A stretch of DNA of 39,312 bases from an uncultured Bacteroidales bacterium (lineage in GTDB: Bacteria > Bacteroidota > Bacteroidia > Bacteroidales > Bacteroidaceae). Below the pieces are notes generated by a model that did not search any database, was not told where the DNA came from, and saw nothing but the letters and a program-made list of their open reading frames with translations. Both the position numbers and the translations under genes were made by a program. Positions 13,418-18,267 of this stretch are shown here, piece after piece. Location of the stretch: NCBI GenBank assembly GCA_902788275.1, contig CADAJV010000013.1, positions 1 through 39,312 of the forward strand, in the 5' to 3' direction. The first letter of the stretch is position 1. Every line of letters begins with the position of its first letter.

Positions 13418-13882
13418 TTAAGGATTAGGCGTGGCAGCAGGCTCAGCCCACTTCTTGCCAAACACCGTCTTGCTCACATCAAAGAAGGTAGCCCTCTTCA
13501 TCTGCTCCCTCAGCTGGGTGCAGGGACGGAAGCGCACAAATACGCCCTTTATACCGTCAGAGCTTACGTCGTCCATATTGTCCTTTCCGGCCGACTTCCA
13601 CTTCTGAGTTTTCTCGTCCCACTCCCCGGTCTTGCAGGTAAGGCGGAAGTTGCCCAGCCCGTCAAGGGTCACCGAGTGGCCGTTAAGCACAAAGTCGTAG
13701 ATAGCCTGAGTCAGGGCAGCAAAGCCGGCACCGAGGTCCTGAGTATTGATATTGCTGTCAGCCAAAGCCAGTCTCACAATATCCTCCTCGCCAATCTTGC
13801 TATAGGGCACCAGTCTCACCCCATACTTAGCAGCACCAGTGTCGGCATCCTCATTTTTGTAAATTCTATAACCAAGTTTCAT
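13418..13882 (-). CDS. HU/IHF-like DNA-binding protein (Bacteroidales type)
   Basis: The 154-aa product starts at the ATG at 13882; a TTG two codons upstream is less likely. It has the long HU-like layout typical of Bacteroidales: an N-terminal strand segment, a helical part with FAALTQAIYDFVLNGHSVTLDGLGNFRL (the N-G-H-x-V-x-L-x-x-L-G-x-F signature of this family), and a C-terminal VRFRP strand with a basic helix. It probably binds DNA as a dimer. It lies 54 bp downstream of a second, diverged paralogue and likely shares its promoter. Confidence 0.82.
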   Translation of the reverse strand: MKLGYRIYKNEDADTGAAKYGVRLVPYSKIGEEDIVRLALADSNINTQDLGAGFAALTQAIYDFVLNGHSVTLDGLGNFRLTCKTGEWDEKTQKWKSAGKDNMDDVSSDGIKGVFVRFRPCTQLREQMKRATFFDVSKTVFGKKWAEPAATPNP

Positions 13883-13936
13883 AAGCAAACGTCATTTTTA
13901 GCAAATTAAACAAAAAAAGTTAACACACACTCAACA

Positions 13937-14335
13937 TCAAGGATTAACGTCGTCATCCACAGTGATGCCCGAGAACTTCACGCTCTTGCAAGCAGACTTG
14001 ATAGTGCCCTTGGGCGTAAACCTGATCTTTAGGCGCTTGATGCAGTCAGGTCCCGCGTCCTTAGCGTTGCTGACCAGTTTGCACTTGGCCGACAGGCTGA
14101 ACGTGCCCAGCTGAGGTATCTGCACCGTATGGCCGTTCATCAGGTAATTAACAAACACAGCTCTCAGAGCATTTACCGCAGCAATGGCCAGCGGCCTGTT
14201 GATGCCGGAGTTGACCGCCAGGTATTCCACCATCTGGTCGTTACCGATGTTGCTGAAGCTCACAATGTTAGGAAAGAGCTTCTTGCCGCCCCCAGGGACG
14301 GTCCTTCTGGTAATAGTTGTTTTTAATAGTCCCAT
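13937..14335 (-). CDS. HU/IHF-like DNA-binding protein (Bacteroidales type), paralogue
   Basis: The product is 132 aa with the same family signature as its neighbour (VNYLMNGHTVQIPQLGTFSL, then LKIRFTPKGTIK). The two differ widely in sequence, so the duplication is old. Such tandem HU-like genes often occur near DUF3987 genes and accessory loci in Bacteroidales. Here they precede a structured RNA region, a BspA-like gene and a DUF3987 gene. It has a well-formed promoter. Confidence 0.82.
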   Translation of the reverse strand: MGLLKTTITRRTVPGGGKKLFPNIVSFSNIGNDQMVEYLAVNSGINRPLAIAAVNALRAVFVNYLMNGHTVQIPQLGTFSLSAKCKLVSNAKDAGPDCIKRLKIRFTPKGTIKSACKSVKFSGITVDDDVNP

Positions 14336-14417
14336 TTTTTTAAGTTTTCTACATTAAACAAAAAGATTAACACAATCTGGGAAGTGTACGTACATCTCAT
14401 TCCCTTTAATTCTACTA

Positions 14418-14449
14418 CAAAGTTAACACTTTTTCTTGAAATACGCAAA
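14418..14449 (-). promoter_or_regulatory. Promoter of the HU-like gene pair
   Basis: The minus strand reads TTTG (14446-14449), 20 nt, TAACTTTG (14418-14425), an excellent match. The start would be near 14411, giving a leader of about 75 nt. Confidence 0.75.
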
Positions 14450-14516
14450 CTTTTTATCAAATTTGTTAAGCATCCTTAGTAAAAATGTTAAGTGCAGATT
14501 TTCGCTAAGGATTTTC

Positions 14517-14546
14517 TTGGCAATCAGAAAATATTGCCTAACTTTG
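14517..14546 (+). promoter_or_regulatory. Promoter reading into the structured region 14551-14774
   Basis: TTG (14517-14519), 19 nt, TAACTTTG (14539-14546), followed by CAGCG as at the first BspA-like gene. Transcription would start near 14551-14553. It is divergent from the HU-like promoter. Confidence 0.75.
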
Positions 14547-14550
14547 CAGC

Positions 14551-14725
14551 GTGTTCTTGTAGGACACGACATATTTGCTCAATTTCCTGTCGAACTGCAA
14601 CCTCAAAGGATAAAGAGAGCATAATGATAACCATTGAAGCTGTGCTTGCATAGTGCAGACTTCTCCATAGGTTATCATAGGTTGTTGCAGACCTGACAGG
14701 AATATGGTGGGTCTGCGCTTTTCTT
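14551..14725 (+). ncRNA. Candidate structured small RNA or attenuating leader
   Basis: About 175 nt with its own promoter. A 5' hairpin lies at 14551-14567. A rod-like fold follows: 14584-14591 pairs with 14695-14702, 14595-14600 with 14685-14690, 14601-14603 with 14679-14681, and 14624-14632 with 14670-14678 (9 perfect pairs), leaving a one-sided 20-nt bulge (14604-14623). An alternative hairpin, GCAGACC (14687-14693) with GGTCTGC (14710-14716), is followed by TTTTCTT and looks like a terminator; it excludes part of the rod. Length and shape recall 6S RNA. A cis-acting attenuator for the gene at 14788 is equally possible. I recognise no named family. Confidence 0.5.
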
Positions 14726-14732
14726 ATGCCCG

Positions 14733-14774
14733 TAAGTTAGCACAACTTCCCATTTGAGAACGAATACTAACTTA
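14733..14774 (+). promoter_or_regulatory. Inverted repeat just before the BspA/BIG2 gene
   Basis: TAAGTTAG (14733-14740) and CTAACTTA (14767-14774) are perfect inverted copies 26 nt apart, ending 13 nt before the ATG. No separate TAnnTTTG box is visible between 14725 and the gene, which favours read-through from the promoter at 14539. Confidence 0.5.
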
Positions 14775-14787
14775 AAAAACTATAAAT

Positions 14788-16383
14788 ATGAAAAAAACAT
14801 TTTTTTTATTTTTGATGCTAGCAACAATGACTAGCAGTGTATGGGCAGATAGTGTTGGAAAGCGTTTAACTCTATCGGAACTTAAAGAAGGACAAAAAGT
14901 TATCATCGAGGCTGCATCGACATCAAACAACTATGAATATTATATCAAGGCTGTTGGAAATTATTATGCGTGGAAGCAGGGGCTGGACACAGATTGTATA
15001 TGGGTTTTAGTTCATTCGGACAAGACTAAATATGGCGAAACTGACACATATTTTTTCCAGCACTTAAGAAGTGGAAAATATATGGGTGGTGGTGATGTGC
15101 GAGGACTCACGAATGCTTCTCCAATGTTAGCGGATGATATAGAAAATGCGACTCCAATAAAACTTTACGGCATGGATAAACCTTATGAGTGGACAGATTA
15201 TAGAAACCAGACATCTAATCCAAGAGGGTGGGATGACAACTCTATTGCTATGAGAGGTTTTGATGATGAGGTAAATACGGCTGACTGGTGGTATGCTAAT
15301 GATGTTATCTACCAAGATGGAGGTTATTTTCCCAACTCAACTCAAACATACAATTTTCAATGGAACTTCTATTCTGTTGACTTTGCGAGAGATGACATTT
15401 TCTCTTTCCAAATAATTTCCGACAGTACAGTTGTTATTATGGGGTTTGCAGAAGAAGAGTATGCGCCAAATTTGGTTATCCCGGATACTATTGTATACGA
15501 AGGAAAAACATACAAGGTTGTTGCAATAGCGGATCATGCATTTGACGGATGCAATGCGTTAAATTCTGTTGAGATATCTACGAATGTTACCACTATCGGA
15601 GAAAGTGCTTTCGCGCACTGTGATAATATTACGGAAATTATCTTTACTACTGATGAGCCTTTCGGTATATCTTCTAATGTCTTTTCCTGTCAGAAGAAAG
15701 CAACGCTAAAAGTGCGCGAGAAGTTTGTACAAGTATTTGGGAGGTTTGATGGCTGGAGAGATTTCTATTATATTGAAGCATATCATTTTCCAGTAGAATC
15801 TATATTGTTAAATATGCATGATCAAACATTATACACGGGAGAGACTTTCCTCCTGTCTACATCGTTTATGCCTCCGGAAGCCTATAATAAGACTATAAGC
15901 TATATGACTTCTGACCCTGTTGTGGCTTCGGTAGACGAGACAGGCTTAGTTACTGCATTGAAGGCAGGAGAAGCATACATAACTGTAATCTCCGAGGACA
16001 ATCCCGCGAAAAAAGACTCATGTTTACTAACGATAAAACAACATGTCACAGGACTAGAATTTAGTAAGCCTAGTTTCATCTTAAAGAATGTAGGTGACAC
16101 GGAAACCTTGACTGTGAATGTTCTTCCCGAAGACGCTACGGATAAAACCGTAAGGTTAGTAAGTACTAATCCTTCTGTTGCCGAGGTGTCTGAGGAAGGT
16201 ATAGTTACAGCAAAAGGCGAAGGAAAATGTTTTATTGTCGCATTGTCCAGCAAAAAAGATGTAGTTGCCGCATGTGTCGTTTATATTGGCACCAACCGCG
16301 ACAATGTAGATGTAAACAAGGATGATGAGGTAAATACGGCTGACGTGGTAGCTATCTATAACTACATCATCACCGGAGAGTAG
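14788..16383 (+). CDS. Secreted LRR/BIG2 protein with dockerin-like C-terminus
   Basis: The product is 531 aa. Signal peptide 1-20. Residues 21-225 form an N-terminal region I do not recognise. A short LRR_5 (BspA-type) segment lies at about 230-330 (AFDGCNALNSVEI and SAFAHCDNITEI). Two bacterial Ig-like BIG2 domains follow at about 335-417 and 419-499 (S-D-P-x-V-A-S-V-D-x-x-G-L-V-T-A pattern, twice). Residues 508-531 are a dockerin-like half repeat ending IYNYIITGE, matching the tail of the BspA-like protein at the window start. Its DNA is visibly richer in A+T than the flanking housekeeping genes, suggesting transfer or relaxed selection. Residues 159-166 (DDEVNTAD) repeat residues 512-519 exactly, at DNA level too. 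Probably a surface adhesin or carbohydrate binder; ligand unknown. Confidence 0.85.
   Translation: MKKTFFLFLMLATMTSSVWADSVGKRLTLSELKEGQKVIIEAASTSNNYEYYIKAVGNYYAWKQGLDTDCIWVLVHSDKTKYGETDTYFFQHLRSGKYMGGGDVRGLTNASPMLADDIENATPIKLYGMDKPYEWTDYRNQTSNPRGWDDNSIAMRGFDDEVNTADWWYANDVIYQDGGYFPNSTQTYNFQWNFYSVDFARDDIFSFQIISDSTVVIMGFAEEEYAPNLVIPDTIVYEGKTYKVVAIADHAFDGCNALNSVEISTNVTTIGESAFAHCDNITEIIFTTDEPFGISSNVFSCQKKATLKVREKFVQVFGRFDGWRDFYYIEAYHFPVESILLNMHDQTLYTGETFLLSTSFMPPEAYNKTISYMTSDPVVASVDETGLVTALKAGEAYITVISEDNPAKKDSCLLTIKQHVTGLEFSKPSFILKNVGDTETLTVNVLPEDATDKTVRLVSTNPSVAEVSEEGIVTAKGEGKCFIVALSSKKDVVAACVVYIGTNRDNVDVNKDDEVNTADVVAIYNYIITGE
15262..16344 (+). repeat. 24-nt exact in-frame repeat within the BIG2 protein gene
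   Basis: Positions 15262-15285 and 16321-16344 are identical and in the same reading frame, coding DDEVNTAD. Similarity continues weakly on the 3' side (GGTGGTATGC against GTGGTAGC). The second copy is the calcium-loop part of the dockerin-like tail. Confidence 0.9.
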
Positions 16384-16665: not shown

Positions 16666-18267
16666 TTATTTTTTGTTGCCGCTATCTGAAAGGGCGTAGC
16701 GACCATCGCCCTTATTAACAATCTCTTTGCCGAGCATCTTGTGGAATGCTCTGTTCACTGTTTTATAATCAGCATAACCAATCTGGAGGGCAACCTCCTT
16801 AAATTGCTGATAATTAAACGTATCCCCAAGGGATGAAAGGCCAAGTAGGAGCCTTTTTCTCAGAGATAAGCCCTGCTGCTTAGCCGCAGAGTTCATTCTC
16901 TCCCTTAATTGGGCCTCTTGCGTTGCATCAGGCTTCCTAAATAGCCTGAGGAACACAGCTTTTGTGTGCTCAAGCATGACATGCCCGATTTCCAGGGCAC
17001 TCCGGAAATCATCGTCCGAAATAAGGATTACATCCTCAACGAAGCTGACGGGGTTGTACTCAAACGCCCTGAGTACCGCCAGCACCATTGCCACCCTGGC
17101 AACATGCATCGGCATGCGCTTCAGAACGGAGTCAAACTCACTGCCCATTATGGCGGTAATCTCTCCGTCTTCGTAGATCTGACCGAGCCAGAGGTCAATT
17201 TGCCTCAATTGTGCCCGGCTAAACCGTACCCTTAGTTTTTTATCTCTGTTAGAGAGGTTGAAATAAATTTCCTCTAGCTTTTTAATTACCACGGAAAGGA
17301 TATCCCTTTCATCAAGAGCATCCTCGTCTTCGATGCTCCAAGCCTGCCAGACTTTTTTCTTCTCATTAAGACAGAAAAAAAGGCATCGGCTGAGCAGACC
17401 GCTCTGAATGCCGTCCTGACCCAGCAGATCTGCAATGTCAGAAGGCACACATGTAGCCACAATGGATAGCTCCGGATGAGCTATTTTGTACACCCTGTCA
17501 TCCATTATTCTGGCCAGCTGAATCATTTCATGTTCAGCCGCGCTTAACAATGTTTCTCTCGTCAAGCCATACTCCCTGTTATTCAGCATGTTGAGCAGAG
17601 CCTTGACTTCCGTCTCAAAGATCAGACCTCGCCCATTGTTTTTGCTCAGCAGCTCTAGGAACTTTGAGTTCGAGCTGTTGCCTGGCAGAATGATTGATTC
17701 CGCCATCATGGTGTTGCTTTCACCATTACGAGACTGCTCAGAGAGCCAGAGGTCGAGGTTCTCTACGAGCCTCCTCACCTTAGTAACAGATCCCTTACCG
17801 CTGGCAGGTGAACCGCAGATAATCAGCATAATGCTCGGGTTTATTTCCCTACCGTCCTTATTGGTATAGACGTTAGGCATCAGAGCCCCGATAGCTGCAA
17901 TCTCAGCTATAATCAGCATCGATTCATGATCTGCGTTAAACGCATAGTTACGTGGGAGGACCCTTAGCAACTGAGGGAGCCTCTCGATTGTCTCCCTGGC
18001 AAATGAAGGCGTAAGGTTTTCCTCCGCCGTGCTTGCTGTAGTGTCGTCCGAGTCGTAGAAGTAATCCTCGTTACTGCTGCTGTCGGAGGTACCATCGTCC
18101 AAATCGCTTATTCGGACGACATAATCATTCTGGCGGCCTTCCTCGTTGGAAGCCACCTCCACATAATCTACGTACTCTCCATCTAACAGGGAGAGGACGC
18201 CCTCTGCAGAGCTACTGTTGTTCGCCTCTACAGAGGATTTTCTTGTAATGGCGTTATTTTCTGCCAT
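16666..18267 (-). CDS. DUF3987-type P-loop protein (helicase/primase-associated)
   Basis: The product is 533 aa. Residues 1-85 are low-complexity and rich in Ser, Asp and Glu. From about 90 it matches the layout of DUF3987 proteins of Bacteroidales: a helical start (ERLPQLLRVLP), a Walker A loop GSPASGKGS at 152-160, a FETEVKALL segment, and a sensor-like SIVATCVPSDI region near 270. The C-terminal about 60 residues look like a winged helix (FNYQQFKEVALQIGYADYKTVNRAFHKML). Larger family members often carry a VirE/BT4734-type N-terminal domain; here an acidic tail takes its place. DUF3987 proteins are common on mobile or accessory loci and are thought to act in DNA replication or mobilisation, without firm proof. 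An unusual repeat-rich region lies upstream. Confidence 0.75.
   Translation of the reverse strand: MAENNAITRKSSVEANNSSSAEGVLSLLDGEYVDYVEVASNEEGRQNDYVVRISDLDDGTSDSSSNEDYFYDSDDTTASTAEENLTPSFARETIERLPQLLRVLPRNYAFNADHESMLIIAEIAAIGALMPNVYTNKDGREINPSIMLIICGSPASGKGSVTKVRRLVENLDLWLSEQSRNGESNTMMAESIILPGNSSNSKFLELLSKNNGRGLIFETEVKALLNMLNNREYGLTRETLLSAAEHEMIQLARIMDDRVYKIAHPELSIVATCVPSDIADLLGQDGIQSGLLSRCLFFCLNEKKKVWQAWSIEDEDALDERDILSVVIKKLEEIYFNLSNRDKKLRVRFSRAQLRQIDLWLGQIYEDGEITAIMGSEFDSVLKRMPMHVARVAMVLAVLRAFEYNPVSFVEDVILISDDDFRSALEIGHVMLEHTKAVFLRLFRKPDATQEAQLRERMNSAAKQQGLSLRKRLLLGLSSLGDTFNYQQFKEVALQIGYADYKTVNRAFHKMLGKEIVNKGDGRYALSDSGNKK

Follow-up and report, generated by a model that had tools for sequence, protein, structure and literature searches.

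A structured RNA of about 175 nt (14551-14726) lies just 5' of a surface-protein gene starting at position 14788 in the window analysed here, a stretch of 39,312 nucleotides from an uncultured Bacteroidales bacterium, and the question is whether this RNA is a free molecule or a leader of the gene that follows. The first-pass annotation left two options open, a free small RNA of 6S-like size and shape or a switchable leader controlling a surface protein, and it has been partly borne out: the results favour the leader and speak against the 6S-like RNA. It seems rather likely, judging from comparative sequence analysis, that 14551-14726 is a cis-acting, riboswitch-like switch leader of gene 14788, and the switch probably works by termination. 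The RNA can form two mutually exclusive shapes, and it therefore probably turns the next gene on or off. Comparison of related sequences is the basis on which the homology, the structure, the exclusive pairings, the promoter position, the T-tract and the gene linkage are described below. The features are collected in Table 1.

Table 1. Features of the RNA locus in the window, and copies of the RNA in the same genome
Feature	Position	Strand	Remarks
Promoter	14517-14546	+	TTG 14517-14519, 19-nt spacer, TAACTTTG 14539-14546; read directly
P1 hairpin, 7 bp	14551-14567	+	window fold; expected 5' end of transcript
PB1, local 5' helix	14576-14580 with 14617-14621 (part 14574-14621)	+	97.4% of cells paired
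P2a, closing helix of rod	14584-14592 with 14694-14702	+	double changes at every pair
P2b	14595-14601 with 14684-14690	+	7 pairs; beyond GAA / RCC internal loop
P3	14625-14632 with 14670-14677	+	87.6% of cells paired; each of the 8 pairs has double changes
P4 hairpin	14636-14663	+	3' strand is M (14653-14660)
PB3, small hairpin AGGY...RCCT	14679-14682 with 14691-14694	+	40 doubly changed cells vs 12.4
M:E	M 14653-14660 with E 14711-14718; extension 14665-14668 with 14704-14707	+	covariation
T-rich tract TTTTCTTA	14719-14726	+	immediately after E
F-like stretch, possible competitor of M for E	14740-14753	+	weak in window
Downstream gene, 531 aa, BspA-type leucine-rich repeats and Big_2	14788-16383	+	PF13306 8e-12, PF02368 3.4e-24
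Copy C13			the window RNA
Copies C38, C12, C7			model R3, E 0.002-0.011
Copy C25			model R3, E 0.22; carries sister pattern
Copies C2, C15			carry sister pattern; not found by R3

The initial observation, made by eye, was confirmed as a whole, as promoter, rod and repeats are all present and the fold is better than that of every shuffled sequence. The good promoter that had been claimed can be read in the window, and a strict TAnnTTTG motif is found 20-60 nt 5' of the core in 71 of the 84 members aligned, compared with three of 84 shuffled sequences. The TA of the motif lies 34-53 nt before the core in those 71 members, and in 47 of the 84 a TTG or TTT is found about 19-23 nt further upstream. 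The Bacteroidota promoter consensus has been given as TAnnTTTG at -7 and TTTG at -33 (PMC7366714), and the -7 element of this housekeeping promoter is thus present both in the window and in the 71 members. A consensus scan of the window returned neither promoter nor terminator, but it used the sigma-70 consensus and loops of 3-8 nt and was therefore blind to both signals at this locus. For the region 14551-14787 the folding energy is -69.4 kcal/mol, whereas dinucleotide shuffles average -50.8 +/- 4.1 (z -4.55; 0/200 as good), and the computed fold contains the interrupted rod with a one-sided bulge of about 20 nt that had been described. Both copies of TGCAGAC exist, at 14654-14660 and 14686-14692, the first of them one base to the right of the 14653-14659 originally given, and GTCTGC is read at 14711-14716. 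A family-model match on the opposite strand (14650-14783, minus) is weak, at 22.8 bits, and is probably a product of the near-palindromic fold. The perfect inverted repeat reported before the ATG is also there (14733-14740 with 14767-14774), but its pairing in 67 usable relatives, 5.443 against a shuffled mean of 5.233 and a highest value of 5.491 in 60 shuffles, is not clearly above shuffles, and it was rejected as a family feature.

When 61 genomes, the source genome and relatives, were searched at the DNA level, five of the relatives had clear matches, one genome having several. Twelve copies align well, and promoter, P1, rod and 3' end are retained in them. The covariance model R2 was made from these twelve copies, which come from 6 of the 399 genomes of the family, and R3 was made from 84 members; R1, with an automatically chosen alternative structure, was not used in searches. 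R2 matches 10 of 19 genomes of the genus and 128 of the 399 genomes of the family, with one to seven copies in each and a best E of 1.2e-35. The share is lower, 44 of 207, when only family genomes with a completeness of 90% or more and a contamination of 5% or less are considered. In a sample of the order 20 of 393 genomes match R2 at E 0.001, the source genome counted, and 25 of 393 match R3 at E 0.0001, counting the source genome and one other of its family. A sample of 296 genomes of the phylum gave the source genome as sole match, large searches of this kind using stricter filters. Among named genomes, a motif scan returned 84 stretches, 80 of which were taken as loci and searched again; 50 of these 80 match at E 3e-10 or lower, and five more at E 0.002-0.009 were left uncounted. 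The 50 carry Bacteroidales-type names (Prevotella, Prevotellaceae, Bacteroidaceae, Bacteroidales), many are from ruminants according to their record titles, and the isolate Hoylesella timonensis S9-PR14 is among them. Phage and plasmid records contained no similar DNA, and two viral contigs gave no model match. The RNA belongs to a widespread and apparently uncatalogued family of gut and rumen Bacteroidales. In 9 of the 46 loci L042-L087 the copy lies within 1 kb of a contig end, a raw count that may point to repeated sequence near the element.

The conserved body was assessed helix by helix in an alignment of 84 members (A5), made without structure and with a mean column identity of 57%. It comprises 89 model matches minus five rows, namely a weak antisense match (L110:3893), L051, which is without P3-P4, and the near-duplicates L107:5153, L119 and L122. 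In the rod, taken as P2a, P2b, P3 and one weak helix that was later dropped, 93.8% of the cells are paired compared with 68.2% after shuffling, and sliding the rod by 1-3 columns reduces pairing to at most 43.5%. There are 605 doubly changed cells against 180.5, with a score of 0.689 against 0.221, and RNAalifold on the first twelve copies gave double changes at 25 of 36 pairs. The weak helix, proposed by RNAalifold (14618-14620 with 14681-14683), contains no cell with a double change and clashes with both PB1 and PB3; it is included in the rod figures and excluded from the parts and from model R3. The proposal that compensatory changes should be seen in the stems across relatives thus holds for the rod, and also for M:E and P4, in the 84 members.

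The 8-pair core of P2a is 95.7% paired. P2b is paired in all 84 sequences, and double changes occur at 6 of the 7 pairs. In 80 of the 84 members, as a raw count, the P1 region reaches a folding energy of -3 kcal/mol or lower. PB1 is mostly invariant, with 5 doubly changed cells against 1.1. The short helix beside it, PB1b, scores 3.756 at 4 bp, against 3.364 and a highest value of 3.571 in 300 shuffles; it is not above shuffles when taken at 6 bp, and it competes with the base of P2a. The Y-R pair of PB3 is a standard pair in 84 of 84 members (C-G 43, U-A 35, U-G 6), and the number of pair types in this helix, 5 against 5.0, is not above shuffles. The loop of PB3 is the 3' strand of P2b, and the two helices may therefore coexist.

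At the 3' end of the RNA one strand, M, has two partners. P4 and M:E both use M and are mutually exclusive, and both are conserved. The 5' strand of P4 pairs with M at 4.42, with a shuffled mean of 3.78 and a highest value of 3.98 in 500 shuffles. For M:E 96.9% of the cells are paired compared with 94.2%, with 36 doubly changed cells against 12.0 (84 members), and the duplex energy is -19.61 with the own partner compared with -17.85 when partners are dealt out (z -7.2). It had been suggested that GTCTGC can pair with either copy of TGCAGAC. Only the first pairing stood up in the 84 relatives, scoring 7.006 against 6.469 for shuffles (highest of 2000, 6.708); the second (14686-14692), at 4.131 against 4.136, does not covary and was rejected. 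M and E were also seen by eye to be altered in concert in the distant members L221, L222, L229 and L231. The energies of P4 and M:E are not significantly correlated (rho 0.19, p 0.09).

M:E resembles an intrinsic terminator in having a G+C-rich stem followed by a T-tract, with at least five T in the first eight bases after E in 82 of the 84 members. The short loop of such terminators was not found; about 50 nt separate M from E, and the scan for loops of 3-8 nt was empty. Forcing M:E without pseudoknots costs the window RNA 10 kcal/mol (-46.6 compared with -56.9), and M:E is likely to be a pseudoknot rather than a standard hairpin if P3 stays formed.

E in turn appears to have an alternative partner, F, which mostly begins 15-20 nt after the core (51/84). 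With extended E and duplex energies, E:F amounts to -11.95 across the 84 members compared with -10.95 for dealt-out partners (0/5000 as good), and to -11.52 compared with -9.03 for dinucleotide-shuffled downstream sequence. The effect is modest: in 10 of 84 members the own F ranks within the top five for E, where about 5 such members are expected, and the window itself ranks 58 of 84 with -9.3. A simpler test in this subfamily, subfamily I, gave no signal against dealt-out partners (3.30 vs 3.27), and 3.30 against 2.65, highest 3.01, when compared with base-shuffled downstream sequence; the positive result for subfamily I thus belongs to the test with extended E and duplex energies. F lies 3' of the T-tract and can therefore come into play only after the termination decision. 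In the window a frame of 17 codons (14704-14757) opens at the conserved ATGG (14704-14707) and crosses E. Gaps of 1-2 bases between ATGG and GTCTG shift this frame among relatives, so that it is not conserved, and a leader peptide was rejected.

The E:F pairing is clearest in a sister subfamily, subfamily II. Of 384 genomes of the order, 27 carry a pattern derived from the distant members, which occurs three times in the genome of the window. Thirty loci inspected by eye repeat the arrangement of subfamily I in a different sequence; in a few of them (e.g., L247, L259, and L267) the automatically chosen E had a low score, and for two no ORF was found. In 37 distinct places out of the 43 loci scanned, E:F covaries, scoring 4.554 compared with 3.507, with none of 1000 shuffles as high. 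The promoter motif is present in 22 of the 37 places and in 2 of 37 after shuffling, and 33 of 36 have an ORF downstream. In these loci M is nearly fixed by the search pattern, E was picked partly by its match to M, and P2b and PB3 were judged by eye. With the sister subfamily included, the source genome likely has seven copies (Table 1), some of them weak by score. All seven were read for layout and fold; the count leaves out two further R3 hits, one on C30 (E 2.7) and one on C9 (E 6.0). For the copy of this genome at locus L283 the next ORF is more than 200 nt away.

In 79 of 87 copies the core is followed, after 25-130 nt, by the start of a same-strand ORF of at least 60 codons; on the divergent upstream side the count is 17 of 85, and at random positions it is 1114 of 4000. 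For this comparison 88 matches were used, 87 of them with room downstream, and 8 of the 87 have no close downstream ORF. For a Pfam survey 73 proteins were chosen from 80 ORFs, the full window protein replacing its clipped copy. BspA-type repeats were found in 13 of the 73, Big_2 in five and an outer-membrane barrel in four (E 0.01), and other families occur in one to three members each, related repeat models aside. Many of the N-termini resemble signal peptides by eye. The BspA-type genes, the frequent downstream ORF and the conserved exclusive helices support the switchable leader of a surface protein that the first-pass annotation had offered as one option. In the source genome, BspA/Big_2 genes follow two of the seven likely copies, those of the window and of C15, and the C12 copy precedes a gene for an EcoRI-type adenine methylase. 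Genes of this methylase type also follow the RNA at L278 and L240 (by Pfam) and at L226 (by similar sequence), in two Bacteroidales families; L240 is a copy from another family than that of the window, with the methylase gene next to it. In the window, the RNA-BspA unit lies between genes of the minus strand (13418-14335 and 16666-18267), two of them HU-HIG DNA-binding genes and one a DUF3987 gene. In the related genome L040 two genes of similar sequence are found just 5' of the RNA, which is followed by a gene that appears BspA-like by eye.

The switch might work as follows. The leader would be transcribed from its own TAnnTTTG promoter and form a conserved body of P1, the P2a/P2b rod with its GAA/RCC loop, P3 and PB3. 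Strand M would then pair either inside P4 or with the downstream E, as in a strand-exchange device. With a T-rich tract directly after E, M:E has the appearance of a stem that closes a terminator, and from this stem and tract we infer that it ends transcription and represents the OFF state, with P4 as the competitor that gives the ON state. In the ON state E would be free to pair with F nearer the start codon. The long loop and the likely pseudoknot call for caution as to termination by M:E. A discrete RNA ending at the T-tract would be a possible product of the OFF state. The balance between P4 and M:E would be set by a ligand or a protein. The downstream genes look mostly accessory, encoding BspA-type proteins, outer-membrane and lipoproteins, beta-propellers and DNA methylases, and a general signal is for this reason likelier than the metabolite of one pathway. 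A broader reading, which we put forward tentatively and with less confidence than the local one, is that these RNAs form a large undescribed riboswitch-like class with at least two subfamilies, in which one general signal acts through the P4 / M:E / E:F exchange to control accessory functions across Bacteroidales, such as BspA-type surface proteins, outer-membrane proteins and restriction-type methylases.

Alternatively, the RNA could be a free regulatory molecule with its 3' end at the T-tract, M:E being its ordinary terminator and the genes merely adjoining it. Promoter, compact fold and T-tract do delimit a discrete unit of about 175 nt. This would leave the site 25-130 nt before a same-strand ORF in 79 of 87 copies, the second partner of E beyond the T-tract, and a P4 that covaries and rivals the would-be terminator to be explained in some other way, and we regard a free RNA as unlikely, albeit as an alternative of some weight. 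Considerably less probable is a 6S RNA or a 6S-like polymerase decoy, which we regard as very improbable despite a rod of similar length with a one-sided bulge. The window contains no match to 6S, 6S-Flavo or Bacteroidales-1, and none of these is among the three hits of the relaxed search of 14400-14900. A search with RF01685 gave no match in the source genome, but none in the control genomes either, so that it carries no weight here. The Bacteroidales-1 RNA (RF01693) of this genome is a separate locus, on contig C17 (2590-2747). 6S-type RNAs usually occur in one or two copies and without a link to a particular mRNA. The present RNA occurs in up to seven copies per genome and mostly stands before a same-strand ORF, and a 6S identity was rejected.

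Proteins rather than small ligands could also be involved, the fold recruiting a protein with an effect on RNA polymerase or on the stability of the RNA. The put RNA and the EAR/LoaP elements are examples of such protein-bound antitermination or processing elements. The very diverse downstream genes and the promoter-proximal site would suit a generic element of this kind, but the conserved exclusive pairings and the T-tract suggest a switch, which makes this explanation quite unlikely, somewhat more so than the free RNA. It is more improbable still that the RNA is part of a mobile or cassette-like unit carrying accessory genes and acts in mobility rather than expression. Several copies per genome stand before accessory genes, EcoRI-type methylases among them, and L107 has two RNA copies 1.1 kb apart in tandem RNA-gene units with a different gene after each. 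The copies are, however, much diverged (57% mean column identity in the 84 members) with their pairing kept, and neither the phage and plasmid records nor the two viral contigs point to a mobile carrier. A switchable leader of the gene remains the reading preferred here.

Gut and rumen Bacteroidales have many genes for surface and accessory functions, and how these are regulated is an open field. With matches in 128 of 399 family genomes, up to seven copies in one genome and visible exclusive folds, the family offers a compact and testable handle on it, and any Bacteroidales genome can be read for its targets. Should there be a ligand, this would be a new riboswitch class, and the ligand would name a signal with which these bacteria set surface proteins and DNA methylases.

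The early remark that no Rfam family could be recognised holds, since the covariance search of the whole window against Rfam 15 gave no match above cut-off. With relaxed limits, 14400-14900 yielded three hits at chance level (E 3.3 to 6.5, limit 10), and relaxed searches of L042 and L231 likewise gave chance-level hits only. In thirty-five further loci of the family no Rfam match falls on the element; those found elsewhere in these loci are a tRNA in L219, a tRNA in L234 and a 5S rRNA in L059. 6S-flavo, Bacteroid-trp, Bacteroidales-1, Bacteroides-1 and Flavo-1 have Rfam numbers in Table 1 of one survey (PMC2864571), and another lists 3161 motif candidates from the human microbiome (PMC8040213). 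The literature search returned no paper recognisable as describing the family. The family is apparently undescribed as judged from Rfam 15 and this search, and it might be among the 3161 candidates.

Among known systems, Bacteroidales-1 (RF01693) and 6S-Flavo (RF01685) are likewise structured RNAs of Bacteroidota of about 110-180 positions. The present family differs from them in being multi-copy and gene-linked, and neither model matches the window or the members tested. Transcription attenuators also have one strand with two exclusive partners, the second pairing being followed by a T-tract, but here the putative terminator encloses a long structured loop and there is no leader peptide. As expected of a riboswitch, the RNA has, by position and structure, a structured domain in a putative 5' leader, and it has mutually exclusive pairings (P4 against M:E, and E:F); homology to a known Rfam class was not found in the window or the members searched. 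The closest likeness is perhaps to the orphan riboswitch candidates, described as leaders with unknown ligand (PMC10043782), which share a covarying fold, a site before genes and exclusive 3' helices with the present RNA. Unlike these, it has no shared metabolic theme among the downstream proteins scanned, and its promoter is joined to the RNA.
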